A stretch of DNA of 64,000 nt from Gammaproteobacteria bacterium (lineage in GTDB: Bacteria; Pseudomonadota; Gammaproteobacteria; Pseudomonadales; Halieaceae): positions 248,001 through 312,000 of the forward strand of contig JANSYN010000001.1 of the NCBI GenBank assembly GCA_024742415.1, in the 5' to 3' direction. Every line of letters starts with the position of its first letter. The stretch's first letter is position 1. Of this stretch, positions 16,782 to 61,877 are shown in pieces. Under the pieces are notes generated by a model, which worked only from the letters and a program-made list of their open reading frames with translations, ran no database searches and was not told the origin of the DNA. The position numbers and the translations under genes were made by a program.

Positions 16782-16808
16782 AAAACAAACAAGGTTGACT
16801 GCTTTTTT
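16782..16808. promoter_or_regulatory. Shared operator-like palindrome, copy A, over a -35 box
   Basis: A-rich arm AAAACAAACAA, six bases GGTTGA, then CTG and a T-rich arm. The left core triplet is CAA instead of CAG. TTGACT at 16795-16800 plus TATGGT at 16818-16823, 17 bp apart, make a plausible sigma-70 promoter for the Rieske oxygenase at 16996. A bound repressor would cover the -35 box. Confidence 0.7.
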
Positions 16809-16995
16809 GTGTGGGGCTATGGTGTGCGTTGGAAGTGGCTTTGCACGGTTTCGGGCACCTGGAAATTTGCGGATACCGGTGCGTCTGTGGATCGGCTTTG
16901 CAGGTAGGCTGCGAGCGTGCCTGGCGTGGTTATCTGCGGTCGGTTGATGGGGCGTTACACGGTGTTTTTTGCAGTACATGACTATAGGTTCGGGT

Positions 16996-18378
16996 ATGAA
17001 TGACAAGATTCGGTTGACTCCAGAGCAGATCGCGGCGCGTGATCCGTCCTATTCGTTTCAGGAACTGCTCGACCGTGAGTGTGTGCCGGTGCCTGATGCG
17101 CTGCGTGAAAGCACTGAAACCTATCTTGGGTCTGAGGATCTGGCGATTGAGCGTTGGACATCGCAGGCATTTTTTGACCGTGAGGTAGACAAGGTCTGGC
17201 GCAAGACCTGGCAGATGGTCTGTCGGGAGTCGCAGTTGCGAAACGCCGGTGATTATTTTGTGTATGACATTGTCAATGATTCGATTGTGTTGACGCGTAC
17301 GCAGTCTGGTGAGTTGCGCGCCTACCATAACTCCTGCCTGCATCGCGGGCGTGTGCTCAAGCGTGGCACGGGCAACTCACCTGAATTGCGCTGTCCTTTT
17401 CACGGCTGGTCATGGAACCTGGAGGGGGACTTCCAGGGCGCGCCCTGCCAGTGGGATTTTCCACATGTGCAGGAAGAGAACTTCAAGCTGCCGCAGGTGA
17501 AAATCGACACCTGGGACGGCTGGGTATTTATCAACATGGACGAGAATGCGCCTGCGCTGAAAGCGTATATGGGCATCATTCCGGAGCATTTTCCGCAGTG
17601 GAAGCACGGCCAGCGCTATGTGTCTGCCCATGTTGAAAAGGTGATTGCCGCCAACTGGAAGACAGTGCTGGAGGCGTTTATTGAGTCCTATCATGCGATC
17701 GCCACGCATCCGCAGTTGCTGGCTTTTCAGGCGATCGACAATTCGCAGTACGACGTTTGGGGTGATCATGTCAGTCGCACGATAACACCGTATGGGGTGC
17801 CTAACCCCAGCGATGCGCACCGGTTTAGCGAGCAGGACTCCATGGATGACATGATGAAACTTGCCGGTAGCGAAGAGCGCCCACAGGTGGCGCCAGGCAA
17901 GACGGCGCGCGAGGTCCTGGCTGAAATCAGCCTGCCCACGGTGAGTGAACAGGCCGGTGAGGAGTTTACCGAGCGCGCAACGATGTCGGAGCTGATGGAT
18001 TCCACGCTGTATCTGCTGTTTCCGAACTTTGCGCCATGGGCGGGACACGGCACGGTGATCACCTATCGCCACAGGCCCAACGGCGATGATGTGAACAGCT
18101 CGATCATGGATATTTACCTGTTAACGCGATACCCCGAGGGAACCGAGCCGCCCAAGGATGCAGCGACGTTCCGCCTGGGGATTGATGAGCCGTTCAAGGA
18201 TGCCGCGGAGGTGCTGGGTGCCGGGCTGGCCAATGTGTTTGACCAGGACGGGGCCAATTTGCCGCAGGTACAAAAAGGGATGCGCGCCTCGAAGAAAGGC
18301 GCGGTCACGCTGGCAAACTATCAGGAGGTGCGCATTCGCCACTTTCACCAAACGCTGGACAAGTACCTCAACGCCTGA
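16996..18378 (+). CDS. Rieske non-heme iron oxygenase, large (alpha) subunit
   Basis: A 460-residue ring-hydroxylating-type oxygenase. ATG 16996 is preferred; in-frame ATGs lie 18 and 27 bases upstream. The Rieske [2Fe-2S] ligands are Cys114/His116 (CLHRG) and Cys133/His136 (CPFHGW). The mononuclear iron site has His233 and His238 in ESYHAIATH, with a late carboxylate probably in VFDQDGANL. The protein shares its layout with the oxygenase at 28450. No reductase or ferredoxin is adjacent; the ferredoxin at 29850 might serve both. It would hydroxylate or demethylate an aromatic or alicyclic substrate in the cytosol. Confidence 0.92.
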   Translation: MNDKIRLTPEQIAARDPSYSFQELLDRECVPVPDALRESTETYLGSEDLAIERWTSQAFFDREVDKVWRKTWQMVCRESQLRNAGDYFVYDIVNDSIVLTRTQSGELRAYHNSCLHRGRVLKRGTGNSPELRCPFHGWSWNLEGDFQGAPCQWDFPHVQEENFKLPQVKIDTWDGWVFINMDENAPALKAYMGIIPEHFPQWKHGQRYVSAHVEKVIAANWKTVLEAFIESYHAIATHPQLLAFQAIDNSQYDVWGDHVSRTITPYGVPNPSDAHRFSEQDSMDDMMKLAGSEERPQVAPGKTAREVLAEISLPTVSEQAGEEFTERATMSELMDSTLYLLFPNFAPWAGHGTVITYRHRPNGDDVNSSIMDIYLLTRYPEGTEPPKDAATFRLGIDEPFKDAAEVLGAGLANVFDQDGANLPQVQKGMRASKKGAVTLANYQEVRIRHFHQTLDKYLNA

Positions 18379-18405
18379 GCCTTCGCCAGCCGCCGGGCCG
18401 GGTTG

Positions 18406-19731
18406 CTACTGCAACTCGGCGAAGTCGATTTCTACCTGATACTCAATCGTCCTGACTGAGCCGTCTGGCATGCTGACATTGCTGATGGTGACTGTGTAGG
18501 GCGTGTCGTGCTCCCAGCCATCCACCATCCACGAAAAGAAGTTGCGCAGCCCATAGCCGCTGTTGTCGAAGTACTCACTGTGTACGTTCAGCGGCGCGCC
18601 TGAGACGCTGTTGACGACGCTGACACTGGCCGCGGAGAAGTGGTCATAGCTACTCGAACTGCCCGCGGGCGGCACCATGCTGATACTCCAGGGCGTAGGC
18701 CTGGCGCCCTGTGACACCATGACGTGCGGATAGCGCAAATACGGAAATGCAATGTACTCCACCGTGGGCGAGATGCTCGACGGTGGTGTGGGCCCAAAGC
18801 CAAACACCTTCATGGCGGCGTCGCCGCGGGTTTGTCCGTACGCTGTGTAGATCAGTCCTGGATGTAATACCCAGCGCCGATGTCCCGCCGCCATTAACGT
18901 CGAGATGTTGTAGTTATCGTTGACCCACCCCAGGGGATAAGCCGCAGGGTCGCCCTGCACGGAGCGATGGGACAGGTTCGATGAGCCAGCGCCTGCGGCG
19001 GCAGCGGCGCTGTAACAGTTGTCGCCCGGCTGTGGGGAGTGCGTCAGGTAGAAGTTGGCGATCTGCACCAGGGCGGTTTCCTGCATCTGGTTGTCGTAGG
19101 TGTTGTCGTACTGCACAGGTGGCAAGTGGTGCAACTGGCGAATCAGGTTGACGCTGTCCAGAAAGCGATCCCTGGCCGCCTGGGTCAGTGCGCCTGCGTC
19201 GCAGATCTCCTGGTCGGGCACGGCGTCATACAGGAAGGCATTGCTGCGATGGAAGCTGGAGTTCAGGCCGCTGAGCAGGTCGCGCCAGGTCGCCACGGGA
19301 TAGCGGTCTTCATCCTCATCGGCAACGAAGCGCGGCTCCAGGTAAAAATCGAAATCCATCGCCAGGAGATCGCTGATATTGGCAAGGCCGGCATGGGGCA
19401 CCATGGTGAAGGCACAGGACTGGGTGCTGTCGCCGCACAAGTGAGCATGATCGTTGCGCCAGCCGGCGAAGGTGTAGCCGGCCACAGGCTCTGCACTGAA
19501 GATGTCGGCAAAACTGGCACTGGTCACGTCAATGGTGCAGGTCTGGCCGGCAAGGCAAACGGTCCCCTCATCAGAGGTGACCTGTCCGCCCGGTGGAACG
19601 GTGATGACGACCCGACAGGCGGCCAGGCAGGTCAATAGCAGCAGTGCGGTGAGGACTTTGGCGGTCTTTGTAGTGGCCGGGGGAAGTGGGCCTGCTGTGG
19701 TGCAGTGTGTGATTGCCTGCTGATATGCCAT
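18406..19731 (-). CDS. CAP/SCP-domain lipoprotein with N-terminal repeat-like domain
   Basis: A 441-residue predicted lipoprotein: a hydrophobic segment and lipobox LAAC with Cys39. Residues 40-100 resemble a single bacterial surface repeat (PPGGQVTSDEG, GYTFAGW) and have three Cys able to pair. The middle carries a CAP-like region: ARDRFLDSVNLIRQLHHLPPV, then alanine-rich MQETALVQIANFYLTH, and NLSHRSV. The C-terminal 150 residues are unassigned and Ser/Tyr/Pro-rich. CAP proteins are secreted and varied in role. It is convergent with the Rieske gene and ends 28 bases from it. Confidence 0.75.
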   Translation of the reverse strand: MAYQQAITHCTTAGPLPPATTKTAKVLTALLLLTCLAACRVVITVPPGGQVTSDEGTVCLAGQTCTIDVTSASFADIFSAEPVAGYTFAGWRNDHAHLCGDSTQSCAFTMVPHAGLANISDLLAMDFDFYLEPRFVADEDEDRYPVATWRDLLSGLNSSFHRSNAFLYDAVPDQEICDAGALTQAARDRFLDSVNLIRQLHHLPPVQYDNTYDNQMQETALVQIANFYLTHSPQPGDNCYSAAAAAGAGSSNLSHRSVQGDPAAYPLGWVNDNYNISTLMAAGHRRWVLHPGLIYTAYGQTRGDAAMKVFGFGPTPPSSISPTVEYIAFPYLRYPHVMVSQGARPTPWSISMVPPAGSSSSYDHFSAASVSVVNSVSGAPLNVHSEYFDNSGYGLRNFFSWMVDGWEHDTPYTVTISNVSMPDGSVRTIEYQVEIDFAELQ

Positions 19732-28191: not shown

Positions 28192-28332
28192 GGGTTGCCT
28201 CCTTCGGGTGGTAGGGTCGCGCTGTGTGCTGCCACACTACGTGGCGTTGCTGCCCACGGCCAATGTTATCGCCGGGACGGCGCGGTTGGTTGGCACAGTC
28301 GGGGTTGAGATGGGCACCAATCCCGCTATACT

Positions 28333-28358
28333 AAAAAAACAGTCCTGCCTGATTGTAT
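28333..28358. promoter_or_regulatory. Shared operator-like palindrome, copy B
   Basis: AAAAAAACAG, six bases TCCTGC, CTGATTGTAT. The CAG-N6-CTG core and flanking A/T arms are kept, but the TTGACT -35 box is not. It lies in the divergent gap between the SnoaL gene (28191, minus) and the Rieske oxygenase (28450, plus), so it can control both. Confidence 0.65.
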
Positions 28359-28449
28359 TATTGGTGGCCTGGAAAAGTCCAACCGCGCCAGCTGGCAGTA
28401 GAGCCCTGGTGTTCATCCCTGGTCAATCACAGCACAGAATGCGCACCCT

Positions 28450-29850
28450 ATGACAAAAACAGTGGATCCCTCGCCAGGAGCAGCCCGTGCCAGCGGCCCC
28501 AGCATTGCCGACACGCTGGCGCGTGACGCCATCGCGCCGCCTGCGCCGATCCTGCAGTCGCAGTATGAGTTTCTTGGCGATGACGATATTCCCGTGGAAC
28601 GCTACACCTCGCACGCCTACATGCAACGTGAAATGAACGAACTGTGGCCCAGGGTATGGCAATGGGTTTGCCGCGAAGAACATATTCCCGATGTCGGCGA
28701 CACCTATGTTTACGATATTGGTCGGCACTCGGTTGTGGTGGTGCGATCAGCGCAAGACACCGTGCAAGCGTTTCACAATGTGTGCACCCATCGCGGTACC
28801 CGCCTGTTTGAGCGCGAGGGTTGTGGCTACAGCGGCGGCTTTACCTGTCCGTTCCATGGTTGGTCGTGGCATCTTGATGGCAGCATCGACACGATCCCGG
28901 GCCGCTGGGACTTTCCTCATGCCACCGAGCAAACCCACGCCCTGCGGCCGGTGCGCTGCGACACCTGGGGTGGATTTGTTTTCGTGAATCTCGACAACGC
29001 AGCGGCGCCACTCGAACGTCAGCTGGATGTGCTGCCGCAACACTTCGCGCATTTCCCGCTGGAGCGGCGACGCATAAAACTGCACGTGCAAAAACGCCTG
29101 CCCGCCAACTGGAAGGCCGCACAGGAAGCGTTTATGGAGGCGTACCATAATTTCGCAACCCACGATGCGCCCAATGGGGGCAATACGCAGTACGATATTT
29201 TTGGCAAATTTGTTAGCCGGTTTATTCATAACATTGGCAGCTATAGCCCGCAGTCACTGGAAGACTATCCGGGTGACAAGTGGCGCAGGCCTGCGCTCAC
29301 CGAGCAGGAACAGTTGCAGATGCTGTCGGTCTTCGGCCTGTCCAGCGACTGCGTGCCCGAGGGTGACACTGCGCGCAATGTTGCTGCAGCCGAGTTGCGC
29401 CGTAGGCTGGGCGAAGCACTCGGCACAGACCTGTCGGGTGTTAGTGAGTGCATGATGCTGGATTCGATTGAGTACCACCTCTTTCCCAATATGTTCCTGT
29501 TTCCCGGTGTGAATGTGCCAATGGTGTACCGCTTCCGTCCCGACGGCGACCGCGTGGACCACTGCCTGTTTGACCTGCTGCTGCTGGAAATGCTGCCCGA
29601 GGGGACGCCACACCCGGTCCCGCCTGAGCCGGTGTTCCTGGATGTCGATGATTCCTATACACAGGTCCAGGCCCTTGGCTGGCTGGCGCCAGTGTATGAC
29701 CAGGACACCGACAATCTCATGCTGCAACAGAAGGGCTTGAGCAGCGCTGCGAAATCCGGAGTTACCCTGGGCAACTACCAGGAGGCCCGGATCCGGCGCA
29801 TGCATATGACCTTGAACGAATACATCACACCGCCGGAGTCACAGCCCTGA
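28450..29850 (+). CDS. Rieske non-heme iron oxygenase, large (alpha) subunit
   Basis: A 466-residue oxygenase. Rieske ligands are Cys112/His114 (CTHRG) and Cys133/His136 (CPFHGW); mononuclear iron ligands are His233 and His238 in EAYHNFATH, with a likely Asp in VYDQDTDN. It aligns in layout with the oxygenase at 16996, pointing to an old duplication. Its stop overlaps the start of the Rieske ferredoxin by one base (TGATG), so the two are translationally coupled and probably an electron-transfer pair. No reductase is present. Confidence 0.93.
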   Translation: MTKTVDPSPGAARASGPSIADTLARDAIAPPAPILQSQYEFLGDDDIPVERYTSHAYMQREMNELWPRVWQWVCREEHIPDVGDTYVYDIGRHSVVVVRSAQDTVQAFHNVCTHRGTRLFEREGCGYSGGFTCPFHGWSWHLDGSIDTIPGRWDFPHATEQTHALRPVRCDTWGGFVFVNLDNAAAPLERQLDVLPQHFAHFPLERRRIKLHVQKRLPANWKAAQEAFMEAYHNFATHDAPNGGNTQYDIFGKFVSRFIHNIGSYSPQSLEDYPGDKWRRPALTEQEQLQMLSVFGLSSDCVPEGDTARNVAAAELRRRLGEALGTDLSGVSECMMLDSIEYHLFPNMFLFPGVNVPMVYRFRPDGDRVDHCLFDLLLLEMLPEGTPHPVPPEPVFLDVDDSYTQVQALGWLAPVYDQDTDNLMLQQKGLSSAAKSGVTLGNYQEARIRRMHMTLNEYITPPESQP

Positions 29851-33514: not shown

Positions 33515-33515
33515 A

Positions 33516-48246: not shown

Positions 48247-48295
48247 GTCGCTATCCTTGTGCTGATTGCCCGGGTGTTGACTGTGTTGCGCCAGC

Positions 48296-49084: not shown

Positions 49085-49092
49085 AAATGCGG

Positions 49093-49746: not shown

Positions 49747-49822
49747 GGCGCGGTGTCCTGGTGAGTGGCGGCGGAGGGGGCGGCCAGGTGCATGGGTATC
49801 GAGTCTATTTCAATCCACCCAC

Positions 49823-49850
49823 AAATAAAACAGTATCGACTGATTGTTTT
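49823..49850. promoter_or_regulatory. Shared operator-like palindrome, copy E
   Basis: AAATAAAACAG, TATCGA, CTGATTGTTTT. The core spacing and arms match, and the right arm CTGATTGTTTT is the best in the set. The -35-like hexamer is TCGACT, weaker than in copies A, C, D and G. It lies between the nitroreductase operon and the acyl-CoA dehydrogenase at 49932. Confidence 0.7.
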
Positions 49851-49931
49851 GGCCGGGGGCGTTTGTTAGCATGTCAGTCACTTTTCCTGATCGGCCTGCG
49901 CCGGTTTCAATCTGATATACAAGGGTTTTCC

Positions 49932-51035
49932 GTGGATTTTAGTCTCAGTGAAGAGCTGGTGCTGCTGCGTGATAGCGTGGACAAGTACGTCAGTGAGAAC
50001 TGCACCGTAGAGCGGCACCGCAGGCTGCAGCACAGCGAGCTGGGGTTTGACGCCGACGCCTGGCAGCAATTTGCCGAACTGGGCTGGTTGTCTGTGCCTT
50101 TTGGCGAGGCTCTGGGCGGTTTTGACGCGGGGCCCGCCGGCACCATGGTGGTAGCGCAGGCGCTGGGCAGGGCGCTGGTGCGCGAACCGTACCTGCATAC
50201 TGTGGTGACCTGCGGCAATCTGCTGCAATGCGCCGGTACGCAGGCACAGCAGGCGGCATGGATTCCGCCAATTATTGACGGCAGTGCACAGTGGGCTTTT
50301 GCCTTTGCCGAGCGCGGCAGTGATTTTGACCTCGGGCAGGTGACGACCCGCGCCGTGGCGCAGGGCGATGGCTTTGCCGTGAGCGGACGCAAGATTGCGG
50401 TGCTCAACGGACACTGTGCGGATCAGCTGTTGGTGACCGCGCTGTATGACGGTGCTGTAGGGCTGTATGTCATTGATGCCACCGCGACCGGGGTGTCCCG
50501 CGAGCGCTTCGTGGCAGTAGATGGCAGTGGAGGTGCCCACCTGGTACTGGATAACGCAGCGGCCGAGCGGCTGGGCGAGTCGCCTGATGGCCAGGCCGCG
50601 CTGGCAACGGCGCTCAACCATGTGACCGTCGCCATGGGTGCCGAGGCACTGGGTGCCATGCAGTCGCTACTGGACGCCACGGTGGAATACACCAAGACGC
50701 GGCAACAGTTCGGCCAGCCCATCAGTCGGTTCCAGGTATTGCAGCATCGCATGGCCGATATGTTCATGAAGGTCGAGGAAACGCGTTCCCTGGTGCTCAA
50801 CGCAACCATCTTGCTGGGGCAGGGCAGTGCGGCAGCGGATGCTGCCTGTGCTGCGCTGAAAGTGAAGTTTGCCGAGGCCTCGCGGTTTGTCTCGCAGCAG
50901 GCCATACAGCTGCATGGCGGCATCGGCATGACCGATGAACTGGTGATCGGTCACCACTACAAGCGTTTGCTATTGCTGGGTAAGCTGTATGGCGATGAGC
51001 AGTATCACCTTGAGCGGTTTGCCGCCGCGGGCTGA
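49932..51035 (+). CDS. Acyl-CoA dehydrogenase family protein (short form)
   Basis: A 367-residue flavoprotein starting with GTG 49932, with AAGGG upstream. It has the N-terminal helical pattern FSLSEELVLLRDSVDKY, a glycine-rich GEALGGFDAGPAGT region, the conserved ATVEYTKTRQQFGQPISRFQVLQHR, and ends LHGGIGMTDE and GHHYKRL. It is shorter in the middle domain than classical members. Shorter acyl-CoA dehydrogenases often form heteromers in sterol and terpenoid degradation, so a partner is possible. Confidence 0.9.
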   Translation: MDFSLSEELVLLRDSVDKYVSENCTVERHRRLQHSELGFDADAWQQFAELGWLSVPFGEALGGFDAGPAGTMVVAQALGRALVREPYLHTVVTCGNLLQCAGTQAQQAAWIPPIIDGSAQWAFAFAERGSDFDLGQVTTRAVAQGDGFAVSGRKIAVLNGHCADQLLVTALYDGAVGLYVIDATATGVSRERFVAVDGSGGAHLVLDNAAAERLGESPDGQAALATALNHVTVAMGAEALGAMQSLLDATVEYTKTRQQFGQPISRFQVLQHRMADMFMKVEETRSLVLNATILLGQGSAAADAACAALKVKFAEASRFVSQQAIQLHGGIGMTDELVIGHHYKRLLLLGKLYGDEQYHLERFAAAG

Positions 51036-51138: not shown

Positions 51139-51174
51139 CACAGAGTCAGGCACAGAGTCAGGCACAGAGTCAGG
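51139..51174. repeat. Triplicate 12-base tandem repeat overlapping a stop codon
   Basis: CACAGAGTCAGG is present three times in a row. The third copy includes the stop codon of the DMT transporter gene at 51170. Slippage could change the C-terminus of that protein or its readthrough tail. Confidence 0.85.
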
Positions 51175-52096
51175 CCTGGCCCGTACTCACGCGCTGGCGC
51201 GGCATAGCTGCCAGCCCCGAACCCAACACAACCAGCACGGCTCCCATGCCGCCGAGCCAATCCAGCGGTTCTGCGATGATGTCCAGACCCAAAAAGTGAT
51301 TGAAGGCGTAGGTAAACAGTAGTGTAAAAAGCGGCGTCAGCGGAATCACTGCGCTGACGCGCGATGCGTCCCAGTAGCTCATGGCCAGCCCAAAGGCACC
51401 GTAAGCGACAATCGTGTTAACCCCGGCAAACAGCAGTAGCAGCAGCTGCTGGCTGGTCAGCGCCATGGCCTGCGCCGGTTGTGCCAGCGGCAGCAGCAGT
51501 ACACTTCCCCCCAGGCAGATCAGCAGCAGAATGTCTTTGGCATGAAAGTGGCTGAGCAGTTTTTTCTGTGCCAGGCCATAACCTGTCCAGACAATGGCGG
51601 CGCCCACCAGCAGCAGGGCACCCAGGGCGTAACCTGGCTCCGTCGGCACGCTGGCCGCGATGCGCTGGTGAAAAAACAGCAGCATGCCCACACTGAAACC
51701 CGCCACACCCAGCCACTGCCAGGCGGGCAAGCGCTCGCCCAGGAACACCACACTGGCGATGAGCAACAGGAAGGGGGCCAGTTGGATCAGAATCTGGGAA
51801 GCGCCCGGGTTGGTGTGATCCAGCCCCCAGATGTACAGCAGGTAGTTGCCGCAAAGACCCAACACGGCCAGTGCGCTCCAGCGCGCATGGGGCCTGGCCA
51901 GCAGGGACTTCAGGGCCGGGCCGCTGTGGTGTCCATACCACAGCAGTGCAATCAGGGCAGAGATGGAAAAGCGATACCAGGAGATCGTGAGCGGATCCAT
52001 CACGGCCAGCACCTCCTTGAGTGCCAGCGGCAAGAGCCCCCACATCACCGTCGTAATCAGCGCGAAGGTCAGGCCCAGCTTCCAGTTATCGGTCAC
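51170..52096 (-). CDS. DMT superfamily (EamA-like) transporter
   Basis: A 308-residue membrane protein with about ten hydrophobic helices in two repeats: FALITTVMWGLLPLALKEVL and WYRFSISALIALLWYG first, then AIVWTGYGLAQKKL and AYGAFGLAMSYWDASRVS. RarD/EamA-type exporters move amino acids, antibiotics or small organics. GTG 52096 is the start. It follows the TetR gene with a 13-base gap, a typical repressor-exporter pair. Confidence 0.88.
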   Translation of the reverse strand: MTDNWKLGLTFALITTVMWGLLPLALKEVLAVMDPLTISWYRFSISALIALLWYGHHSGPALKSLLARPHARWSALAVLGLCGNYLLYIWGLDHTNPGASQILIQLAPFLLLIASVVFLGERLPAWQWLGVAGFSVGMLLFFHQRIAASVPTEPGYALGALLLVGAAIVWTGYGLAQKKLLSHFHAKDILLLICLGGSVLLLPLAQPAQAMALTSQQLLLLLFAGVNTIVAYGAFGLAMSYWDASRVSAVIPLTPLFTLLFTYAFNHFLGLDIIAEPLDWLGGMGAVLVVLGSGLAAMPRQRVSTGQA

Positions 52097-52109: not shown

Positions 52110-52808
52110 TCATGCGCCTTTGGTATGGCGACCGATAGCGGAGCTTTCCTCTTCTTCGAAGATTTCCTCGAGGCGGTCAGACAGGTAGTTCATAAGCCGG
52201 CTGACGCGCTCTTCGCGATGTGTCATCAGGCGGCTGGCGGCCAGGCCTTCCATCATAAACTTGGTCACGTCCATGGCGAGCAAGAAGCGCTCGCCGCGGT
52301 CTTTCCATTCGGCAAACAGGGCTTCGTTGGATTCGCGCACGTGTTGTTCAAAGGCCTGCTGGGAGCTCTCCAGTATCGCCTTGAGCTCTGGGTCAGAGCG
52401 GCTGGCGGTGCACAATTCGTGATAGACCACAAAAAGGTCACCAGTAAGGTGCTCCCAGTAGGCCTCAACGCCGGCCCTGCGGCGCGCGGGGCCCTGCAGC
52501 GCAGCAGGAATGTTGCTCACACGCTGGGTGTAATCTTCGATCAGTTTATCGTGCAGGTATTCCACTGCGGCCTGTATCAGTTCGGTTTTCGAGGGAAAGT
52601 GGTGCAGCATCGCACCGCGCGACACGCCGGCAGCCTGTGCCACCTTGGCGGTGGTGACGTTGGTGTAACCCAGGTTGATAAAGCAGTTAATGGCCGCATC
52701 CAGAATGCGGTCACGGGTCATCGCGCTCTTCTGTGCCTGCCAGCTAATGTCGGAGGGGGCTTTTGCTTCGACGCTTGTTTTCGTCGGCTTGGGTTTCTTG
52801 GTAGCCAT
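52110..52808 (-). CDS. TetR family transcriptional regulator
   Basis: A 232-residue repressor. A basic N-terminal arm (about 28 residues, Lys/Pro-rich) precedes the helix-turn-helix: TRDRILDAAINCFINLGYTNVTT, VAQAAGVSRGAMLHHFPSKTEL. The rest is the all-helical ligand-binding and dimer domain, ending in an acidic EEIFEEEES region. The gene carries a variant of the window's shared palindrome about 32 bases upstream, so autoregulation is plausible, and it is the best local candidate for the regulator of the whole set. It probably also controls the exporter downstream. Confidence 0.9.
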   Translation of the reverse strand: MATKKPKPTKTSVEAKAPSDISWQAQKSAMTRDRILDAAINCFINLGYTNVTTAKVAQAAGVSRGAMLHHFPSKTELIQAAVEYLHDKLIEDYTQRVSNIPAALQGPARRRAGVEAYWEHLTGDLFVVYHELCTASRSDPELKAILESSQQAFEQHVRESNEALFAEWKDRGERFLLAMDVTKFMMEGLAASRLMTHREERVSRLMNYLSDRLEEIFEEEESSAIGRHTKGA

Positions 52809-52839
52809 AATGGATCGCGGTGCCTTTACAAAAACAACA

Positions 52840-52864
52840 AAAAAACAAACAGGACTGATTAAAA
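52840..52864. promoter_or_regulatory. Shared operator-like palindrome, variant copy F (short spacer)
   Basis: AAAACAAACAG, only GA, then CTGATTAAAA. Arms match the other copies but the core is CAG-N2-CTG instead of N6. It is 32 bases ahead of the TetR ATG. It may be a weak autoregulatory site, a pair of half sites, or a look-alike. Confidence 0.5.
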
Positions 52865-53008
52865 CAGGATGAAGGCAGATTATAACCAGAAGCGGGGAGT
52901 CTTATCGACTAAATATTCGCACCGCGGCCCACTGATGCGTGCCGGCAGGAGTAAAACGGATGTCGCGCGCCCCGGTCATGCCCCGGCGCGCGCTGTCAGG
53001 CAGGCTGC

Positions 53009-54472
53009 TCAGTCGTTGACGCCGCCCATGCACAGGTACTTGATTTCCAGGTAATCGTCGATGCCGTACTTGGAACCCTCGCGACCAATACCCGATTCCT
53101 TCACGCCACCGAAGGGTGCGACCTCGGTAGAGATGATGCCCTCGTTGACGCCGACGATGCCGTAATCCAGCCCCTCGCTGACGCGCCAGATACGGCCGAT
53201 GTCCCGGGCGTAGAAGTAGGCAGACAGCCCAAAGGGCGTGTCGTTGCCGATGCGAATCGCTTCTTCCTCGGTGCTGAATCTGAACAGTGGCGCAATCGGC
53301 CCGAAGATTTCCTCGTTGTACACTTCCATGGAGTCATCGACGTCCACAAGCACTGTCGGGGCGAAGAAGTTCTGCCCTGTCGTTGGTGTGCTGCCGCCGA
53401 CAAGGACTTTGGCACCTTTGCCGGTGGCCTCATTGAGAATTGAAGTGACTTTCTCGAAGGCACCGTCGTTAATCAGTGGGCCCATGGTCACGCCGGCATC
53501 AGCGCCGTTGCCCAGCTTCTGCTGTTTGACCGCGGCAACCAGTTTTTCTGCAAACGCGTCGAACACGCTGTCCTGCACCAGGATGCGATTGGCGCACACG
53601 CAGGTCTGACCCGCGTTGCGGAACTTCGACGCCATGCAGCCGGCGACCGCGGCATCGAGGTCCGCATCGTCGAAGACGATAAAGGGTGCGTTGCCACCCA
53701 GTTCCATGGAGGTTTTCTTGACCGTGCCGGCGCACTGTTCCATCAGCACTTTGCCGATTTCTGTAGAGCCGGTGAAGGTCAGTTTGCGCACAATCGGGTT
53801 GCCGGTCATTTCACCGCCGATAGCGCGCGCGTTGTTGCCGGCCACCACGCTGAATGCGCCGGCGGGTACCCCGGCACGATGCGCCAGTTCGGCCAGCGCC
53901 AGCGCACACAGTGGTGTCTCTGTTGCGGGTTTGAGCACCACGGTACAGCCGGCAGCCAGTGCCGGCGCGACCTTGCGTGTAATCATCGCAATGGGGAAGT
54001 TCCAGGGCGTGATCGCAGCGACCACACCCACCGGTTGTTTCAGGGTAACGATGCGCTGGTTGGGGTTGTTCGCACTGATAGTATCACCGTAGATGCGGCG
54101 CCCCTCTTCGGCGAACCACTCAACGAAAGCGGCACCGTAGCCGACTTCGCCGCGCGACTCTGCCAGGGGTTTGCCCTGTTCGGCGGTCATCAGTTGGGCC
54201 AGGTCCTCCTGATTCTCCATAATAAGCTGGAACCAGCGCTTGAGCACGGCGGAACGCTCCTTGGCAACCACGTGGCGCCAGCTCTGGAAGGCCGTCTCAG
54301 CTGCCTCAATCGCGCGCCGTGTTTCAGCGGCTCCGGCATTGGGGATGGCAACGATTTCCTCTTTGGTCGCCGGGTTCAGTACCGGCATGGTTGCGCCACT
54401 GTCCGCGTCCGTCCATGTGCCGTCAATGTACAGCTGATTGCGCAGCAAAGTGGGGTCGGAAAGTTTCAGCAT
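53009..54472 (-). CDS. gabD: NAD(P)-dependent succinate-semialdehyde dehydrogenase-like aldehyde dehydrogenase
   Basis: A 487-residue aldehyde dehydrogenase with AAGGAG upstream. Catalytic Cys291 (NAGQTCVC) and Glu257 (MELGG) are present, with the cofactor segment FTGSTEIGK. GabD-like wording (TPWNFPIAM, GNAPFIVFDDADLDAA) suggests a succinate-semialdehyde-type enzyme, but the real substrate may be any aldehyde from the oxygenases. Last gene of the minus-strand operon starting at the ABM-domain gene (58109). Confidence 0.88.
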   Translation of the reverse strand: MLKLSDPTLLRNQLYIDGTWTDADSGATMPVLNPATKEEIVAIPNAGAAETRRAIEAAETAFQSWRHVVAKERSAVLKRWFQLIMENQEDLAQLMTAEQGKPLAESRGEVGYGAAFVEWFAEEGRRIYGDTISANNPNQRIVTLKQPVGVVAAITPWNFPIAMITRKVAPALAAGCTVVLKPATETPLCALALAELAHRAGVPAGAFSVVAGNNARAIGGEMTGNPIVRKLTFTGSTEIGKVLMEQCAGTVKKTSMELGGNAPFIVFDDADLDAAVAGCMASKFRNAGQTCVCANRILVQDSVFDAFAEKLVAAVKQQKLGNGADAGVTMGPLINDGAFEKVTSILNEATGKGAKVLVGGSTPTTGQNFFAPTVLVDVDDSMEVYNEEIFGPIAPLFRFSTEEEAIRIGNDTPFGLSAYFYARDIGRIWRVSEGLDYGIVGVNEGIISTEVAPFGGVKESGIGREGSKYGIDDYLEIKYLCMGGVND

Positions 54473-54502
54473 GGGTTGTCTCCTTGGGCGCCTGAGCGCG
54501 GT

Positions 54503-55492
54503 TTACTTGCCGGCCAGGCGTGCTACTACGGGAGCAAACGCCTCGACCATGTTGTTTTCGCCATCATCAAGTACGGCGATGTACGAGATGCCGTAGGTCT
54601 CCCTGCGGCGTAGCAGTTCGTCACAGATGTAATCCACGCTGCCGATCAGGCAGTGTGGGTGCAAGAGGATGTCCTGCGTGCTCATGCCCAGCGCCTCGCC
54701 AATTGCCGCTGCGGTGGGCTCCGCGTGGTCCGTGATGATGGTGTTGTAGGCGCCGATTTCCAGCTCAATGTTGTCAAAGCGCGCGCCAGCGCCCTGCGCT
54801 ACCCATTGTATTTTCTTTGCGGTGGCTTCTGCCAGCCCGGAGTTCATGCCGTCCGGGCCGAGCATGCCGGCGCGATTGTTAAAATTCAGGCTGACGATGT
54901 CGGCCTCCTGGCCGGCGAATTCGAGGATTCTTTTGCTGCCACCGCCAATCATCAGGGGAGGGTGGGGTGTTTGTGCCGGTGCCGGCGTACCGTGAAAGCC
55001 ATGCCACTTGATAAAGTCGCCATCGATAGCCAACGGCTCGCCGCGCATGAACGCCTTGTAGCCATGCACGAATTCAGCAAAGCGTTCGAAGCGCTGGGGA
55101 AACTCATCAAAGGGCAGGTTGACTGCCTCGTATTCATTCCTGATCCAGCCGGCACCAATGCCAAACTCCAGGCGTCCCTCGGACAGGTAATCCATGGTGG
55201 CCGCTTCCTTGGCCAGCATGATGGGCTGCCGGTAGTCGTTGCAGAATACGCGGCAGCCCACGCGCAGCGTTGTGGTCTGCTGCAGCGCCATTGCAATCGC
55301 CGGCACGGCGGCCAACATCTGCGGCGGATGGAAGGTGCTGTCCAGCGCCGGCCCCGGGCTCAGAAAATGATCTGCAAGAAAAAACGTCGAATAGCCAAGG
55401 TCTTCGGTTTTTCGTATCAGCTCGCGCCAGCTGGCGGGCGAGTCGGTGTTGAAGCTTTGCAGTGAGAATCGAAAAGGCCTGTTGTTACTCAT
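54503..55492 (-). CDS. Luciferase-like (LLM class) flavin/F420-type oxidoreductase
   Basis: A 329-residue TIM-barrel oxidoreductase. ATG 55492 follows GGGAG. Seen: FRFSLQSFN, a WRELIRKTEDLGYSTFFLADHF block, GRLEFGIGAGW, and HPPLMIGGGSKRIL. Automatic annotation of this type often says F420-dependent; F420 is uncommon in gammaproteobacteria, so FMN is the more likely cofactor. Cotranscribed with the molybdopterin enzyme (43-base gap) and the aldehyde dehydrogenase. Confidence 0.88.
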   Translation of the reverse strand: MSNNRPFRFSLQSFNTDSPASWRELIRKTEDLGYSTFFLADHFLSPGPALDSTFHPPQMLAAVPAIAMALQQTTTLRVGCRVFCNDYRQPIMLAKEAATMDYLSEGRLEFGIGAGWIRNEYEAVNLPFDEFPQRFERFAEFVHGYKAFMRGEPLAIDGDFIKWHGFHGTPAPAQTPHPPLMIGGGSKRILEFAGQEADIVSLNFNNRAGMLGPDGMNSGLAEATAKKIQWVAQGAGARFDNIELEIGAYNTIITDHAEPTAAAIGEALGMSTQDILLHPHCLIGSVDYICDELLRRRETYGISYIAVLDDGENNMVEAFAPVVARLAGK

Positions 55493-55535
55493 GACGCAGT
55501 CTCCCGGGCTTGCAGCTGGTGTAGGGCTGGAGAGT

Positions 55536-57701
55536 TCAGGACAGCTTGCTGACGGCAACCGGAATGCAGCTTTGACGTGGCATGCCTGAGTACCTCTCGT
55601 TGTTTTTACGGTTATCGATCAGTCGATTGGTGTTGCTGCCAATATCACGCACCTTGCCGTCACTGTTTGCTTCCGGATCCGGGGAGCCGCCCCAGCAGTG
55701 GGCCATTGAGATAACGCCGGGGCGTACATCGTCGCTGGCCTGGGCCACTGCAGGGATCATGCCTTTTGCGGATCGCACGTTGATGATCTCGCCGCTGCTG
55801 ATTCCCCAGCGCTCGAGCTCCTGTGAGTGCATAAACGCCGGGTTGGTGGTGCCTTTCTTTTTCAACAAGCTCAGTTCCGGCCCGGTGGAATTGTAGGTGT
55901 TTTTCATGCGCCGGCTGATCAGCAGCAGTGGATAGTCTGCACTGGACGCGGCGTTGAGGTCGGCAAGTGCGCTGGCCAGCTCCTCGTCCAGGCCCGGCGG
56001 GTACAGTTCAAGCCGCTGCGCGGTCTCTGGATCAGGCGGGCCGACAATCACATCGGGCACGTCGTAGACCTTGCCGCCCTGCGTGTCGCGAATCACTTCC
56101 AGCGGTACGCGCGAGCCCTGTGTGATCAGCTTGAGCAAATCAAACTTGGCAGGTTTGTTGACCATATCGATAGGGCCGTTGGCCATGTGCAGGTCCAGCC
56201 CCATGCGCTTGCCGAGTTCCCAGAAAAGCTCCCACTCTTCTATTTTGTCGCCCTCGGCCTCGACGACTGTCGGGGTGTACTGTGAATAGGGTTTGTCGTG
56301 CCAGATGTCGGTGAGCAGGGTAACGTCCTCGCGCTCAAGGCACAGCTTGGGTGCCAGCACATAGTCGGCCAACTGTGCCGTGGGCGACATTTTTAAATCG
56401 ACGCATACCAGCAGTTCCAGCGACTGCAGGGCGCGCAGTGTTTTCTCCTGGTCGGGAAAGGCCAGCAGCGGTTGGCCGCCGATCACCAGCAGCGCTTTGA
56501 TCTGGCCTTCACCTTCGGTCAGTATCTCATCCGTCAGCACAGCGGTGGGCATTTCCGGTTTGGGCCCGTAGGGTGACAGCACGGTGCTTTCACCGATGTC
56601 GTCGGACACACGGCTTTTGACGCACTCGTTCAACCACTGCTGTTGCGGCCCGGTCGCCTGTGCCAGGCGCGGGATGTCCGGCGTTAACACGCCAGGGTTG
56701 GGCATGCGTTCGCCCTCGCGACAAAACCGGCCACAGATCGCATTGAGGCTTTGCACCAGGTGCTGCAATAAATTGGGGTGTGGCCCCATCTCCGGGCCGG
56801 TGCCGGTCGTTGCGGTACCGCGTGGCCCGGCCGCAAACAGCCGCGCCGCGTCGTAGATCTGCTGCGCAGTAATGCCGGCCGCCGTGGCCACGGCCTCTGG
56901 CGTAAACTCGCTCACCTTGCTGGCCAGTGCGCTGAAGTGGTCGGTGTGTTCGTCACAGAACGCCTTGTCGTACAGGGATTCGCTGATAATCACGTTGAGC
57001 AATGCAGCGACCAGGGCAGCGTCATGGCCGGGGCGTACCTGCAGGTGCAGGTCCGCGCGTTTGGCGACTTCGGTTTCACGGGGGTCGATGCAGATGACTT
57101 TCATGCCGCGCTTCTTGCCCTCGCGTAGCGCATTGTGCGGGCTGAACGACGGGATGCCACCGGGAATGGAAAAATGCGACACCAGCGTGTTGCAACCGAT
57201 AATCAGGGCAACGTCGGAGTCGTTCCACATGTGGCCGCCGCCGTTCCACCAGCCCATGCGCGCCGGGCCAATAGCCACTTTGGCCGGTTGGTCAATGGTC
57301 ACGCTGGTGTAGTAGGAGGGTGAACTGATGGCCCCGTGAAAGGCGCGCGCAACATCGTGAGCTGCCGAATTCTGATAGGAATACGTACCGTTGTAGCTGG
57401 CGATACTGCGCGGCCCGTATTTTTCAAGGATCGCCTGCAGCTTGTCGCTGATCTCGTCCAGCGCGCTGGCGGTGGCAATGTCGGCATAGCTGCCGTCGGC
57501 CTGGCGTTTCTGTGACTGCTGTAACCGCGTGGGGTGATCGATCTGTTCGATGAGTTGGCGCCCCTTGATACAGGTGTAACCGCCATAGACTTCGTTGTCG
57601 GTATCGGGCTGCAGGTCGATCAGCTTGTTGTTCTCCACGGTTGCCACCATGGGGCAATAGGCGTGGCAGAAACGACAGTAGGTTTTTACTTGTTTTGTCA
57701 T
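55536..57701 (-). CDS. Molybdopterin-dependent oxidoreductase (formate dehydrogenase-like superfamily)
   Basis: A 721-residue protein with an N-terminal [4Fe-4S] motif YCRFCHAYCPM (Cys-x2-Cys-x3-Cys) and a fourth Cys in TCIKGRQ, followed by the molybdopterin domains: GPRSIASYNGTYSYQNS, GCNTLVSHF, EGKKRGMKVICIDPRETEVAKRADLHLQVRPGHD, and the C-terminal dinucleotide-binding domain (LISRRMKNTYNSTGPE). No Tat signal, so cytosolic, and no electron-transfer subunit is adjacent. Superfamily members handle formate, aldehydes or ring hydroxylation/dehydroxylation. It precedes the luciferase-like gene. Confidence 0.9.
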   Translation of the reverse strand: MTKQVKTYCRFCHAYCPMVATVENNKLIDLQPDTDNEVYGGYTCIKGRQLIEQIDHPTRLQQSQKRQADGSYADIATASALDEISDKLQAILEKYGPRSIASYNGTYSYQNSAAHDVARAFHGAISSPSYYTSVTIDQPAKVAIGPARMGWWNGGGHMWNDSDVALIIGCNTLVSHFSIPGGIPSFSPHNALREGKKRGMKVICIDPRETEVAKRADLHLQVRPGHDAALVAALLNVIISESLYDKAFCDEHTDHFSALASKVSEFTPEAVATAAGITAQQIYDAARLFAAGPRGTATTGTGPEMGPHPNLLQHLVQSLNAICGRFCREGERMPNPGVLTPDIPRLAQATGPQQQWLNECVKSRVSDDIGESTVLSPYGPKPEMPTAVLTDEILTEGEGQIKALLVIGGQPLLAFPDQEKTLRALQSLELLVCVDLKMSPTAQLADYVLAPKLCLEREDVTLLTDIWHDKPYSQYTPTVVEAEGDKIEEWELFWELGKRMGLDLHMANGPIDMVNKPAKFDLLKLITQGSRVPLEVIRDTQGGKVYDVPDVIVGPPDPETAQRLELYPPGLDEELASALADLNAASSADYPLLLISRRMKNTYNSTGPELSLLKKKGTTNPAFMHSQELERWGISSGEIINVRSAKGMIPAVAQASDDVRPGVISMAHCWGGSPDPEANSDGKVRDIGSNTNRLIDNRKNNERYSGMPRQSCIPVAVSKLS

Positions 57702-57764
57702 GATCAGATTCCGCGCAGTGTTGTAGCAGCCGCAGCACCGTGTGCTGGTGGCCGGGAGTGTTGG

Positions 57765-58109
57765 TTATTCGGTAAAGAAGTCGGCCCTGGGTGTGCCTTG
57801 CGGGTCGTAGACGGGCTCTTCCAGATCAATTCGGTATTTCGCAACGTCGGCGTCAGCAATGCCGTATTTGCCAAGGCTTGCCAGCATGTTCTGGTAGTAG
57901 GGTCCCGCCAGGTGCGCCGCCAGTGCCTCAACTGAGGACCATTTCTCAAACACATACACGCGCGTTGCAGAGGTGGGGTCAGCCGACCATACATAGTGCT
58001 CGCAGCCCTGCTGGTCGCGCGTCTCCACCACCAGGCTGGCGGTTTCCTGCAGGGCAGTTTCGCGGTCGCCCTCGGGTAGATGAAGCGTGCCGGCGATGAT
58101 TACGGTCAT
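57765..58109 (-). CDS. Antibiotic biosynthesis monooxygenase (ABM) domain protein
   Basis: A 114-residue dimeric-alpha/beta-barrel protein: MTVIIAGTLHLPEGDRETAL, CEHYVWSADPTSATRVYVFEKW and AHLAGPYYQNML. ABM proteins oxidise or simply bind small aromatic/polyketide compounds, or degrade heme. It heads the minus-strand operon (ABM, molybdopterin enzyme, luciferase-like, aldehyde dehydrogenase) with shared-motif copy G upstream. The ATG at 58109 is preferred over a longer reading with an implausible N-terminus. Confidence 0.85.
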   Translation of the reverse strand: MTVIIAGTLHLPEGDRETALQETASLVVETRDQQGCEHYVWSADPTSATRVYVFEKWSSVEALAAHLAGPYYQNMLASLGKYGIADADVAKYRIDLEEPVYDPQGTPRADFFTE

Positions 58110-58186
58110 GGCGTGTCCCGGGCGGGCAACTCGCTGCCCGACGTTAGAGAATAAAGGTTCGAAAAAGGTAGCAGAAGGGTCAGAGT

Positions 58187-58213
58187 AAAACAATCAGGGT
58201 TGACTGCTTTTTT
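58187..58213. promoter_or_regulatory. Shared operator-like palindrome, copy G, over a -35 box
   Basis: AAAACAATCAG, GGTTGA, CTGCTTTTTT. TTGACT at 58200-58205 and TAAGTT at 58223-58228 (17 bp) can be a promoter for the plus-strand oxidoreductase at 58383. It lies in the divergent gap with the ABM-molybdopterin operon. Confidence 0.75.
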
Positions 58214-58338
58214 GGTAGCGGCTAAGTTGGGCGCTGTTCGACACGCCTTGCAGGCGCAGTTCCCGGGTACGCGGTTTAATGGCGGCGCCGCATACGCCAA
58301 TGCTGTGCCTACCCCGTAATCACCCTTTAACCATCTTT

Positions 58339-58382: not shown

Positions 58383-59402
58383 ATGACCACAATAACTAAC
58401 CGCCAGTACTATCTCGCTGCCCGGCCAAACGGCGCGCCGACGCCCGCGGATGTTCCCTATCGCGACGTCCCTGTGGATGAACCCGCCGAGGGTGAGGTGG
58501 TTCTGCGCAACCTGTACATCTCGCTGGACCCGGCGATCAGGGGCTGGATGGGTGACGACCCAAACTATATAGAGCCAATTGCGCTGGGCGATGCCGTACG
58601 TGCATCGGTCATAGGGCGGGTGGTAAAGAGCGCCAGCGAGGAGTTTGCGCCAGGCGATGTGGCCATGGTCATGGGTGGGTGGGAGCAATACACCACAGTC
58701 CCCGCCGCCATGTGCTCAAAGCTCGACGAGTCTGCGGGTATTCCGCTGAGCTATTTTCTGGGTGTGCTTGGCCCAACCGGCCTGACGGCTTATTTTGGCT
58801 TGCTTGAGGTCGGCAAGCCCAAGGCGGGTGAAACCGTGCTGGTCAGTGCGGCGGCGGGCGCCGTTGGGTCGATCGTGGGGCAGATCGCAAAAATGCAGGG
58901 CGCTCGCGTGGTCGGCATGGCCGGTAGCGATGACAAGTGCCAGTGGCTGAAAGACGAGCTGGGCTTTGACGAGGTGATCAATTACCGCAGTTGCGGTGAC
59001 TATGCAGCGGCAATCAGCAAAGCCTGTCCGGACGGTGTGGACGTGTATTTCGATAATGTCGGCGGCGACATCCTCGATGCGGCGCTGGCCTGCCTGAACA
59101 AGTTTGCCCGCGTGGCGGTGTGTGGTTGGATATCAACCTACAACATTGCCGATGCCCCCGGCCCCAGCGCGAAGAACCTGTGGCAACTTGTGGCCAACAG
59201 CGTGACCATCCAGGGCTTCGTCGTGATCGATTACATGGAACGCTTCCCCGAGGGTGTGGGCCAGTTGGTAGAGTGGCTGATGGCCGGCAAGCTGCAGTTT
59301 CGCGAGGAAGTGGTGGAAGGCCTGGACAACATTCTGCCGACCTTCCTCAAATTGTTCGACGGCTCCAACAGCGGCAAGCTGGTGATCAGCCTCCCGGAGT
59401 AA
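58383..59402 (+). CDS. NADP-dependent zinc-free oxidoreductase (MDR, enal/prostaglandin reductase-like)
   Basis: A 339-residue medium-chain reductase without zinc ligands: YISLDPAIRGWM near residues 41-52, the NADP loop AAAGAVGSIVGQIAKMQGARVVG, DEVINYRS, and YFDNVGG. Such enzymes reduce alpha,beta-unsaturated aldehydes or ketones, a fitting step after oxidative cleavage. Ends 48 bases from the convergent luciferase-like gene. Confidence 0.9.
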   Translation: MTTITNRQYYLAARPNGAPTPADVPYRDVPVDEPAEGEVVLRNLYISLDPAIRGWMGDDPNYIEPIALGDAVRASVIGRVVKSASEEFAPGDVAMVMGGWEQYTTVPAAMCSKLDESAGIPLSYFLGVLGPTGLTAYFGLLEVGKPKAGETVLVSAAAGAVGSIVGQIAKMQGARVVGMAGSDDKCQWLKDELGFDEVINYRSCGDYAAAISKACPDGVDVYFDNVGGDILDAALACLNKFARVAVCGWISTYNIADAPGPSAKNLWQLVANSVTIQGFVVIDYMERFPEGVGQLVEWLMAGKLQFREEVVEGLDNILPTFLKLFDGSNSGKLVISLPE

Positions 59403-61186: not shown

Positions 61187-61369
61187 CCGCCGCTTGAACA
61201 GCGTCGCCGTTTGAAGAGGGCCGCTGCCCGGCCAGAGCCGTTACGTGCCGATAACCGCTGCCCGAAAATCGCCATCGCCTGAACACAGCCACGCAAGCCT
61301 AGCACCGCTGCCAGGCATGGACCCTGAGCGCACCGGCTGCTGCAGCGGTGCCCGGCGCAGGGGTTTGCA

Positions 61370-61798
61370 TCAGGCCGGTCGTGTAAAGTCGCCGCTGAAA
61401 TCCGGTGGGCCGTTGTAGATGAAGCAGTACTCGCGGCTTTGAAACAGCCACTGTCCCTTCACTTTCACATAGGTATCGTTGTAGCGGCTGATCAGCGTGC
61501 CTTTGTTGCCATCGAGGTCGCGGCTGTACTCGTGCAGGTACCAGTGGCCAGTGGCGCTATCGCCCTGGAATTCAAACAGGCAGGAACTGGGCAAGAGCAG
61601 GGCGTACTCAAAGCTGGCCATCATTTGCTGCCACAGCGCCAGGATGTTGTCGCGACCCTGCACCGGGTTGCCCATGAGGTTCCACACCCCATCCTCGGCC
61701 CAGGTAGCAATCCAGGCATCGGCATCGTAGCGGTTTACCGCGTCTACATAGCGCGCCATCAAGTTGCGCAGCGCGATTTCATCTTCCAGATTCTGCAT
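61370..61798 (-). CDS. SnoaL-like (NTF2-fold) protein
   Basis: A 142-residue SnoaL-like protein with GGAG upstream: EIALRNLMARYVDAVNRYDADAW, WAEDGVWNLMGNPVQGRDNIL, and GHWYLHEYSRDLDGNKGTLISRYNDTYVKV. It is divergent from the carotenoid-type oxygenase at 61971, sharing a promoter gap with motif copy H. Third SnoaL-type gene in the window; not an immediate paralogue of the pair at 27-28 kb. Confidence 0.85.
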   Translation of the reverse strand: MQNLEDEIALRNLMARYVDAVNRYDADAWIATWAEDGVWNLMGNPVQGRDNILALWQQMMASFEYALLLPSSCLFEFQGDSATGHWYLHEYSRDLDGNKGTLISRYNDTYVKVKGQWLFQSREYCFIYNGPPDFSGDFTRPA

Positions 61799-61847
61799 CT
61801 TTCCTATCTCCGCCGTTGACTGCCCTCACTGTACCCGCGGTCCTGGG

Positions 61848-61877
61848 AAAAATAAACAGACGGGACTGTTTTTTAAT
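61848..61877. promoter_or_regulatory. Shared operator-like palindrome, copy H
   Basis: AAAAATAAACAG, ACGGGA, CTGTTTTTTAAT. CAG-N6-CTG and both A/T arms are kept; the -35-like TTGACT is replaced by GGGACT. It sits between the SnoaL gene (61798) and the carotenoid-type oxygenase (61971). Confidence 0.7.

Follow-up and report, generated by a model that had tools for sequence, protein, structure and literature searches.

Background

Palindromes of the form CAG-N6-CTG recur in the promoter gaps of an oxygenase-rich island in a gammaproteobacterium of the family Halieaceae, and they raise the question whether these palindromes are the operators of a single regulon and which protein would bind them. 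The island lies in a stretch of 64,000 nucleotides (assembly GCA_024742415.1, contig JANSYN010000001.1, positions 248,001 to 312,000), hereafter the window, whose own numbering is used below. The original prediction, made from the letters of the window, proposed one dispersed operator at eight places, one regulon from 17 kb on and, as its binder, the TetR protein encoded at 52110-52808. We consider it about 85% probable, on the evidence of sequence, that the eight sites are operators of this protein and belong, along with three or more good sites in other parts of the genome, to a single catabolic regulon. The sequences themselves show the sites, their conservation, their co-occurrence with the TetR protein, the presence of one of them in the tetR promoter, and a constant spacing between the sites and -10-like hexamers. 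The earlier reading is thus supported, with corrections.

Operator-like sites in the window and the genome

All eight sites were found where they had first been placed, and seven of them are CAG/CAA-N6-CTG palindromes in A/T-rich arms. A symmetric 30-bp matrix trained on seven sites, with the form at 52840 excluded from training, recovers eight separate matches of at least 21 bits in the window, the next separate match reaching only 13.3 bits (position 62583, within the gene of the carotenoid-cleavage-type dioxygenase CCD3). The first 14 kb contain no match of at least 6 bits, and the claim that comparable copies are absent from this region stands. Order-2 random sequence yields a mean of 0.15 matches of at least 14 bits per 64 kb (20 runs). 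When each of the eight sites is scored by a matrix built without it, it has no equal elsewhere in the window, nor in 400 kb of random sequence matched in composition to the site flanks. The CAG-N6-CTG pattern is present as described; base frequencies indicate that the preferred half-site is longer, namely CAGTC/GACTG with A/T arms, and an alignment of ten sites shows no variation in CA on one side and CTG on the other.

Five of the sites occupy gaps between divergent genes. One lies at 34396..34425 (39.5 bits with the matrix, 35.5 in leave-one-out scoring), between the operon of the short-chain dehydrogenase/reductase (SDR) SDR1 on the minus strand and the alcohol dehydrogenase (ADH) gene ADH1 on the plus strand, and another at 40100..40129 (39.3 and 36.4), between a TonB receptor gene (minus) and carotenoid-oxygenase genes (plus). 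The site at 49822..49851 (36.2 and 31.0) separates a nitroreductase operon (minus) from the acyl-CoA dehydrogenase (ACAD) gene ACAD2 (plus); that at 58186..58215 (34.7 and 31.5) separates an operon for ABM, molybdopterin, luciferase-like (LLM) and aldehyde dehydrogenase (ALDH) proteins (minus) from ADH2 (plus); and that at 61848..61877 (34.5 and 28.8) separates a SnoaL gene (minus) from CCD3 (plus). Before the Rieske oxygenase-ferredoxin genes at 28450-30206 stands the site at 28331..28360 (34.9 and 31.6), where TATACT at -19 from the centre and the better-scoring TATTAT at +10 leave the promoter position ambiguous. The site at 16781..16810 (33.3 and 29.0) carries CAA on one arm, as had been noticed, and holds a -35 element TTGACT with the -10 element TATGGT 17 nt on, toward the Rieske oxygenase gene at 16969-18378.

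The weakest of the eight, at 52837..52866, is the proposed autoregulatory operator of tetR; it was located by the matrix, which gives it 21.0 bits although it was not among the training sites, and by alignment of upstream regions. It had been described as a short-spacer form at 52840-52864. We rejected a short-spacer class because the matrix sets this site in the N6 register with one weak arm (CAA-N6-CTG), and because two of three Microbulbifer loci (L108 and L110, not L111) have the full CAG-N6-CTG in the tetR promoter. The same promoter, at 52837-52866 and its flank, also shows an everted pair of half-sites, CTG-N7-CAG, recognizable by visual inspection in 13 of 15 same-genus orthologues and perhaps representing a second, overlapping site.

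Across the 4.14-Mb genome a pattern search allowing three mismatches returned 36 matches, against 9 for the reversed pattern (both strands counted apart), and the best of them are in the island; the motif is thus concentrated rather than spread at random. Outside the window, matches with at most two mismatches are found at C12:324261 (none), C4:110534, C18:84926 and C25:232370 (two each), and one regulon, as had been proposed, would therefore reach past the window to other contigs. The C12 site (matrix position 324259) lies upstream of an SDR-SnoaL pair (SDR4); the C4 site has a P450 gene on one side and a TetR-flavin monooxygenase pair on the other; and the C18 site lies upstream of the E1-alpha and E1-beta genes of a 2-oxoacid dehydrogenase. 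The C25 site (232369), with 29.7 bits by the matrix and 12.6 bits by a profile model, has no convincing target gene; accordingly, we count three good sites outside the window (C12, C4 and C18) and one doubtful site. The profile model was trained on ten sites of this genome (the eight of the window, C4 and C12:324259), and it ranks nine of them first, followed by C18 with 16.2 bits. A match on C23 (matrix 14.4, model 14.1 bits), within the open frame L075:8605-9009, was taken as chance.

The TetR protein and its co-occurrence with the sites

The protein encoded at 52110..52808 on the minus strand, the proposed repressor of the regulon, contains the PF00440 TetR_N helix-turn-helix (E 1.4e-15; 57.2 bits, cut-off 24). 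Its predicted structure has 11 helices (pLDDT 84) and appears to adopt the all-helical TetR-type fold; a fold search gave 211 PDB matches with E of at most 0.001, and the best 50 of these 211 are mostly TetR-family or TetR-type regulators. Putative palindromic operators in its target promoters, its own included, are consistent with membership in this family. It is the sole close member in the genome, other matches having at most 39% identity over the helix-turn-helix part. Among NCBIfam models, 22 families match it at E 0.001 and none reaches its cut-off, the best being of the ScbR type (51.9 of 150). It does not score as a KstR orthologue (27.1 bits with NF033703, cut-off 280), and KstR2 structures match it only over profile positions 30-105 (E 2.5e-6). 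Among the matches listed, its closest named relatives come from Halioglobus, Haliea, Halieaceae and Seongchinamella.

The TetR protein was found in 15 of 18 same-genus genomes (source genome included), at 73-81% identity in the other 14, and also in the genomes G022 and G031 at 55-56%. For a wider comparison, counts of the two-mismatch pattern were rejected as a discriminator between genomes, since some TetR-less genomes score too among the matches listed, and a profile model from the sites of the source genome was therefore used on an order-wide sample of 145 genomes together with a search for the TetR protein. At least three distinct model places occur only in the source genome, G000 (9), and in G090 (8) and G053 (6); 11 other genomes have a single place, and in the remaining 131 the model found nothing at E 0.05. 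The genomes with at least three places are exactly those in which the TetR protein reaches 65% identity (Fisher p 2.0e-6; 9.7e-5 with G000 excluded). This co-occurrence and the conservation of the sites support the earlier nomination of the protein of 52110-52808 as the likely binder.

It is conceivable that the sites are bound by some other protein, such as the second TetR at the C4 site (L072:8632-9309), with the island TetR merely one of its targets. The C4 site lies next to the gene of this second TetR, on the other side of which stands the P450 gene, and the order is kept in G014 (L202). Nevertheless, the sites track the relatives of the island TetR in Microbulbifer and at distant SDR1-ThuA-Rieske loci, which were mapped for homologues of window and regulon genes, and the second TetR is only 23% identical to the island protein over about 85 residues; we therefore regard binding by another regulator as very unlikely. 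The arrangement of P450 gene, operator and second TetR gene in the C4 region (L072:7230-10769, near 110533) is an observation in its own right, and an operator beside a second TetR gene suggests a regulatory cascade.

Further arrangements were seen in other genomes. G090 encodes a second TetR of the subfamily (L217:4477-7768, C1 near 3103272; 42-44% identity), which has its own near-perfect palindrome and faces a TonB receptor gene, as in a paralogous switch. The same genome has two tandem operator-like sites 31 bp apart (L214:10840 and 10871; 23.5 and 32.8 bits). In G022, two genes for TonB receptors, well away from the island, have an operator each (L089:8465 and 12356; C1 near 1368466).

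Sites at distant loci and at a moved gene

A search with the TetR signature gave 332 loci, the best 80 of which were analyzed; the distant ones were picked by the shared peptides WQAQKS and SRGAMLHH. Sites of at least 22 bits are present in 27 of the 30 loci where TetR identity is 49% or more, and in 32 of the 50 loci where it is 40-47%. As controls, 20 column-permuted matrices average 0.05 matches per set, and none of ten loci around other TetR genes of the source genome has a site (L201, an eleventh one situated at C4, was excluded). In 29 of the 37 distant loci with SDR1 a site of at least 18 bits lies within 250 bp upstream of that gene. Among the distant loci listed, SDR1, ThuA, a Rieske oxygenase, E1 and an SDR4-like gene are frequent neighbors, and the distant sites tend to AAACAGTC-N2-GACTGTTT; the operator centre reads CAGTC-AT-GACTG in distant homologues and is variable in Halieaceae. 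TetRs of the subfamily also occur in records titled Klebsiella pneumoniae MAG (metagenome-assembled genome; L116, that is CAMAXE010000021.1, L143 and L169). L116 seems to correspond to G031:C21, which is placed in the source genome's own order, and the title looks mislabeled.

In G022 the E1-alpha gene adjoins ACAD1 behind SDR1, and a close orthologue (89-92% identical to that of G000) stands apart from the core operon in G000, G003, G004, G008, G012, G014 and G015, at a distance of about 350 kb in G004 and on a separate contig in the others. In all seven of these genomes (L222-L228) the separated gene has a site of 24.7-32.6 bits some 110-210 bp upstream; where a 52-60% E1 paralogue follows CCD3, no separate site was seen. 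If selection did not keep the moved E1 gene within a single regulon, a site before it would be difficult to account for.

Placement at large agrees with conservation upstream of orthologues in relatives, which the original prediction had named as a test, along with a check for copies inside genes. Among 183 distinct sites of at least 20 bits in the examined loci, a count that sees only homologues of window and regulon genes, 174 lie outside such homologues, and the other nine overlap only the ACAD2 query, the longest frame of which is over-extended in the window. A homologue starts within 300 bp of 160 of the 183 sites, and 73 have one on each side. These data bear on the possibility that the sites are chance A/T-rich matches flanked by T-tracts in intergenic gaps. 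Such matches do arise, in that the two-mismatch pattern finds 7-8 matches in each of the unrelated G025, G026 and G030, against 2-4 for the reversed pattern, among the matches listed. The leave-one-out scores and the permuted matrices nevertheless speak against chance, and retention of the site in orthologous gaps of many genomes refutes it; we give this explanation practically no weight.

Promoter geometry and a possible mechanism

In 233 gene-directed flanks, hexamers of the form TAnnnT accumulate at four distances from the operator centre, +22 (46), +27 (24), +29 (46) and +30 (73), against at most 15 at any other offset from 12 to 44, with the orthologues among these flanks not being independent. 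In the source genome, where the background is eight TAnnnT in 1615 positions, four of 17 directions have the hexamer at +22 and TTGACT 17 nt ahead of it (Rieske A, ADH1, CCD1 and ADH2), and five have it at +30 and TTGTTT 17 nt ahead of it (SDR1, TonB3, ACAD2, ABM and E1). Poorer -35 elements accompany NitroR and SnoaL2 at +29 and CCD3 at +27, and SDR4, P450, TetR2, Rieske B and TetR have a hexamer at none of the four distances. At 34396, 40100 and 58186 the palindrome centre and an arm each give a -35-like element, one per direction. At tetR a TATAAT lies 33 bp before the operator centre, which places the operator downstream of the -10 element. A general sigma-70 scan of 33900-40400 found one site, against 2.1 in shuffled sequences, and the promoters are seen only through their fixed distance to the operator; promoter matrices gave no good promoter at tetR, SDR4 or E1.

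The fixed spacing could also be read to mean that the motif is itself a promoter element, a recognition sequence for a sigma factor, or else a spread repeat; it does hold -35-like hexamers at a set distance from -10-like hexamers. However, both halves of the palindrome are kept where TTGACT is absent (28331 and 61848), the invariant CA and CTG are on opposite sides, the tetR site lies past the -10 element, and the flanks of different targets are unlike, by eye, apart from their -10 elements. This explanation is accordingly highly improbable, and an operator remains the favored interpretation.

Most sites overlap the -35 region of a flanking promoter, or of the promoters on both sides, an arrangement that suggests steric repression like that by KstR2, and occlusion of the polymerase would be the simplest reading of these sequences. 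A TetR dimer would bind the palindrome near AAAMAAWCAGTC-N2-GACTGWTTKTTT. At most sites the operator would thereby cover the -35 region, either with TTGACT at its centre and the -10 element at +22, or with TTGTTT in its arm and the -10 element at +30. In divergent gaps, where it overlaps the -35 elements of both promoters, a single bound dimer could block RNA polymerase at both. At tetR, an operator past the -10 element would block the start and result in negative autoregulation. A hydrophobic substrate or intermediate would release the protein, and release would switch on together uptake (TonB) and first oxidation (Rieske and carotenoid-type dioxygenases, P450), with the later steps (SDR, ADH, ALDH, acyl-CoA dehydrogenase and 2-oxoacid dehydrogenase) co-induced.

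Points against the proposed regulon

A number of observations weigh against a single TetR-governed regulon of this form. In the order-wide comparison the thresholds of the Fisher test (at least three places, at least 65% identity) were picked after the data had been seen; with loose thresholds (any model match; TetR at E 1e-30) three genomes have both, 11 only sites and three only the TetR (p 0.012). The scan scored only part of the first-look candidates, one of its two steps with stricter filters. G031, G074 and G135 carry the TetR at 40-55% identity without a model match; in G031 weaker sites stand before SDR1 (16.9 bits), before the molybdopterin gene (17.7) and elsewhere (21.4). The same-genus genomes G002, G009 and G011 have sites, and the TetR was not found there; the contigs of G009 and G002 break off within ALDH or ABM, short of the place of tetR, and the G011 genome is 74% complete. 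The tetR promoter is itself a weak point. By eye, 10 of 15 same-genus orthologues have CAG-N6-TTG there; with the matrix, a site of 18 bits is detected in only 5 of the 18 loci L090-L107, and the site is decayed in G005 and G013. The profile model, although trained on it, puts the tetR site (13.9 bits), like C25, under the C23 match.

At the distant loci, selection by WQAQKS and SRGAMLHH means that the recognition helix is common to them by choice, and L105, L116 and L117 seem to repeat G014, G031 and G022, the locus counts therefore not being independent trials. Furthermore, 18 of the 50 distant loci lack a 22-bit site, and eight of 37 lack one before SDR1. Separation of E1 in G003, G008, G012 and G015 rests on contigs of fragmented assemblies and is less sure.

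The promoters, too, leave some room for doubt, as eight of the 17 directions in the source genome have the hexamer at neither +22 nor +30. In addition, an operator centre near -42 fits an activator as well, which raises the possibility that the TetR activates, or acts in both ways, instead of being a plain repressor. The reverse geometry puts the centre some 42 bp upstream of the start, close to where activators that touch polymerase at -35 usually sit, whereas in the forward geometry it coincides with the -35 hexamer, and the tetR site is past the -10 element. Moreover, a TTGACT -35 element with 17-nt spacing should not require an activator, and TetR-family regulators are mostly repressors. 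We consider activation very unlikely.

Gene content of the proposed regulon

The sites precede genes whose transcript extents were judged from gene direction and spacing. The first site precedes the gene of Rieske ring-hydroxylating oxygenase A (16969..18378, plus), and the second those of Rieske oxygenase B (28450-29850) and a Rieske-type ferredoxin (29850-30206; together 28450..30206, plus). The core operon (30264..34403, minus, SDR1 being taken at its longest open frame) encodes SDR1, a ThuA-like protein, the acyl-CoA dehydrogenase ACAD1 and Rieske oxygenase C, and it diverges from the gene of the zinc alcohol dehydrogenase ADH1 (34503..35537, plus). On the minus strand at 35593..40088 are a TonB-dependent receptor gene (37584-40088), a gene without Pfam match (36759-37562) and SDR2 (35593-36462); opposite them, at 40178..45303 (plus), two dioxygenases of the RPE65 family (lignostilbene/carotenoid type) are encoded with a DUF3604 protein. 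A nitroreductase, SDR3 and a dienelactone-hydrolase-like protein (47518..49746, minus) face ACAD2 (49761..51035, plus, as longest frame; Pfam match from residue 63). Downstream of tetR, an EamA transporter gene (51170..52096, minus) is probably on the same transcript. The ABM, molybdopterin oxidoreductase, luciferase-like oxidoreductase and aldehyde dehydrogenase genes (53009..58193, minus) face ADH2 (58383..59402, plus), and the gene of the SnoaL-like protein (61370..61798, minus) faces CCD3 (61968..63380, plus).

The intergenic placement originally described holds overall, except that the longest frames of SDR1 (34403), ABM (58193) and ACAD2 (49761) run into sites. These starts are probably too early, because homology starts only well inside these frames (near residue 43-50 in SDR1, at 31 in ABM and at 63 in ACAD2), and the true SDR1 start is probably near 34270. 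A single regulon from 17 kb on is likewise supported in the main, but the matrix scan of the window gave no separate site for the genes at 18.4-27.6, 45.3-47.1 and 59.4-61.2 kb.

As for substrates, the best models for CCD1 are of the lignostilbene type and are matched below their cut-offs (399 of 800), and structure look-ups of the Rieske, dioxygenase and SDR proteins returned broad classes only, with no substrate. The luciferase-like protein (54503-55558) passes the F420-dependent family TIGR03621 (257.5, cut-off 213.15), which is unexpected for a gammaproteobacterium.

Related systems

Tn10 TetR with its tetO sites is an instance of operators over divergent promoters combined with autoregulation; it resembles the present system in both respects, and differs from it in having another operator and a single locus instead of a dispersed regulon. 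By fold alone, the top of the Foldseek list is taken by SCO7518, EthR2 and Rv0078 (PDB 2dg8, 6hrz, 5wm9 and 6c31), which share the TetR fold at about 20% identity.

Closer in organization are KstR and KstR2, TetR repressors of cholesterol catabolism in actinobacteria, the KstR2 motif being given as AnCAAGnnCTTGnT (PMC3068626). KstR2 likewise governs a degradative gene set through a short palindrome in divergent gaps, with one site for two divergent operons, negative autoregulation, and a motif identified by genome comparison. The operator described here is not that of KstR2, as it has CAGTC-N2-GACTG in A/T arms in place of AnCAAGnnCTTGnT, and both the gene set and the lineage (actinobacteria versus Gammaproteobacteria) differ. 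A functional parallel that joins catabolism and TonB receptors is PheR of Sphingobium (PMC13273656), which represses a phenanthrene-degradation operon starting with the oxygenase gene phnA1, and the deletion of which also raises transcripts of TonB-dependent receptors; PheR is, however, of the IclR family and has the essential motif GCAACG, in contrast to the TetR_N domain found here. In the open-access literature on the motif, the gene set and the regulator family we found, among the entries listed, no description of the regulator-operator pair, and the available part of a study of lignin dimers (PMC12997858) names no TetR regulator. The pair thus looks new, although systems of this kind are already known and no new principle is involved.

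General considerations

Taken more widely, the chances seem slightly better than even that an undescribed TetR subfamily, marked by WQAQKS and SRGAMLHH, is the dedicated repressor of an uncharacterized catabolic core (SDR, ThuA-like, Rieske oxygenase and 2-oxoacid dehydrogenase) common to Halieaceae, Steroidobacteraceae, Woeseiaceae and further lineages, as well as of a related Microbulbifer island. On this proposal the operator would have been recruited in Halieaceae to about a dozen sites and up to seventeen gene directions, staying with genes that moved and forming a two-faced promoter-operator block in which the palindrome can carry a -35 element for either direction, TTGACT in the centre for one and TTGTTT in an arm for the other.

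A regulator-operator pair and its gene set can thus be defined for coastal Halieaceae from sequence alone. The operator marks members, including the P450 and 2-oxoacid dehydrogenase genes on other contigs, and therefore helps to delimit the pathway. It also provides a handle on the substrate, as whichever compound frees the TetR from a 30-bp probe, and the pair would provide a new sensor part. As Steroidobacteraceae and other lineages have the same core, a single answer would aid the annotation of many uncultured Proteobacteria.

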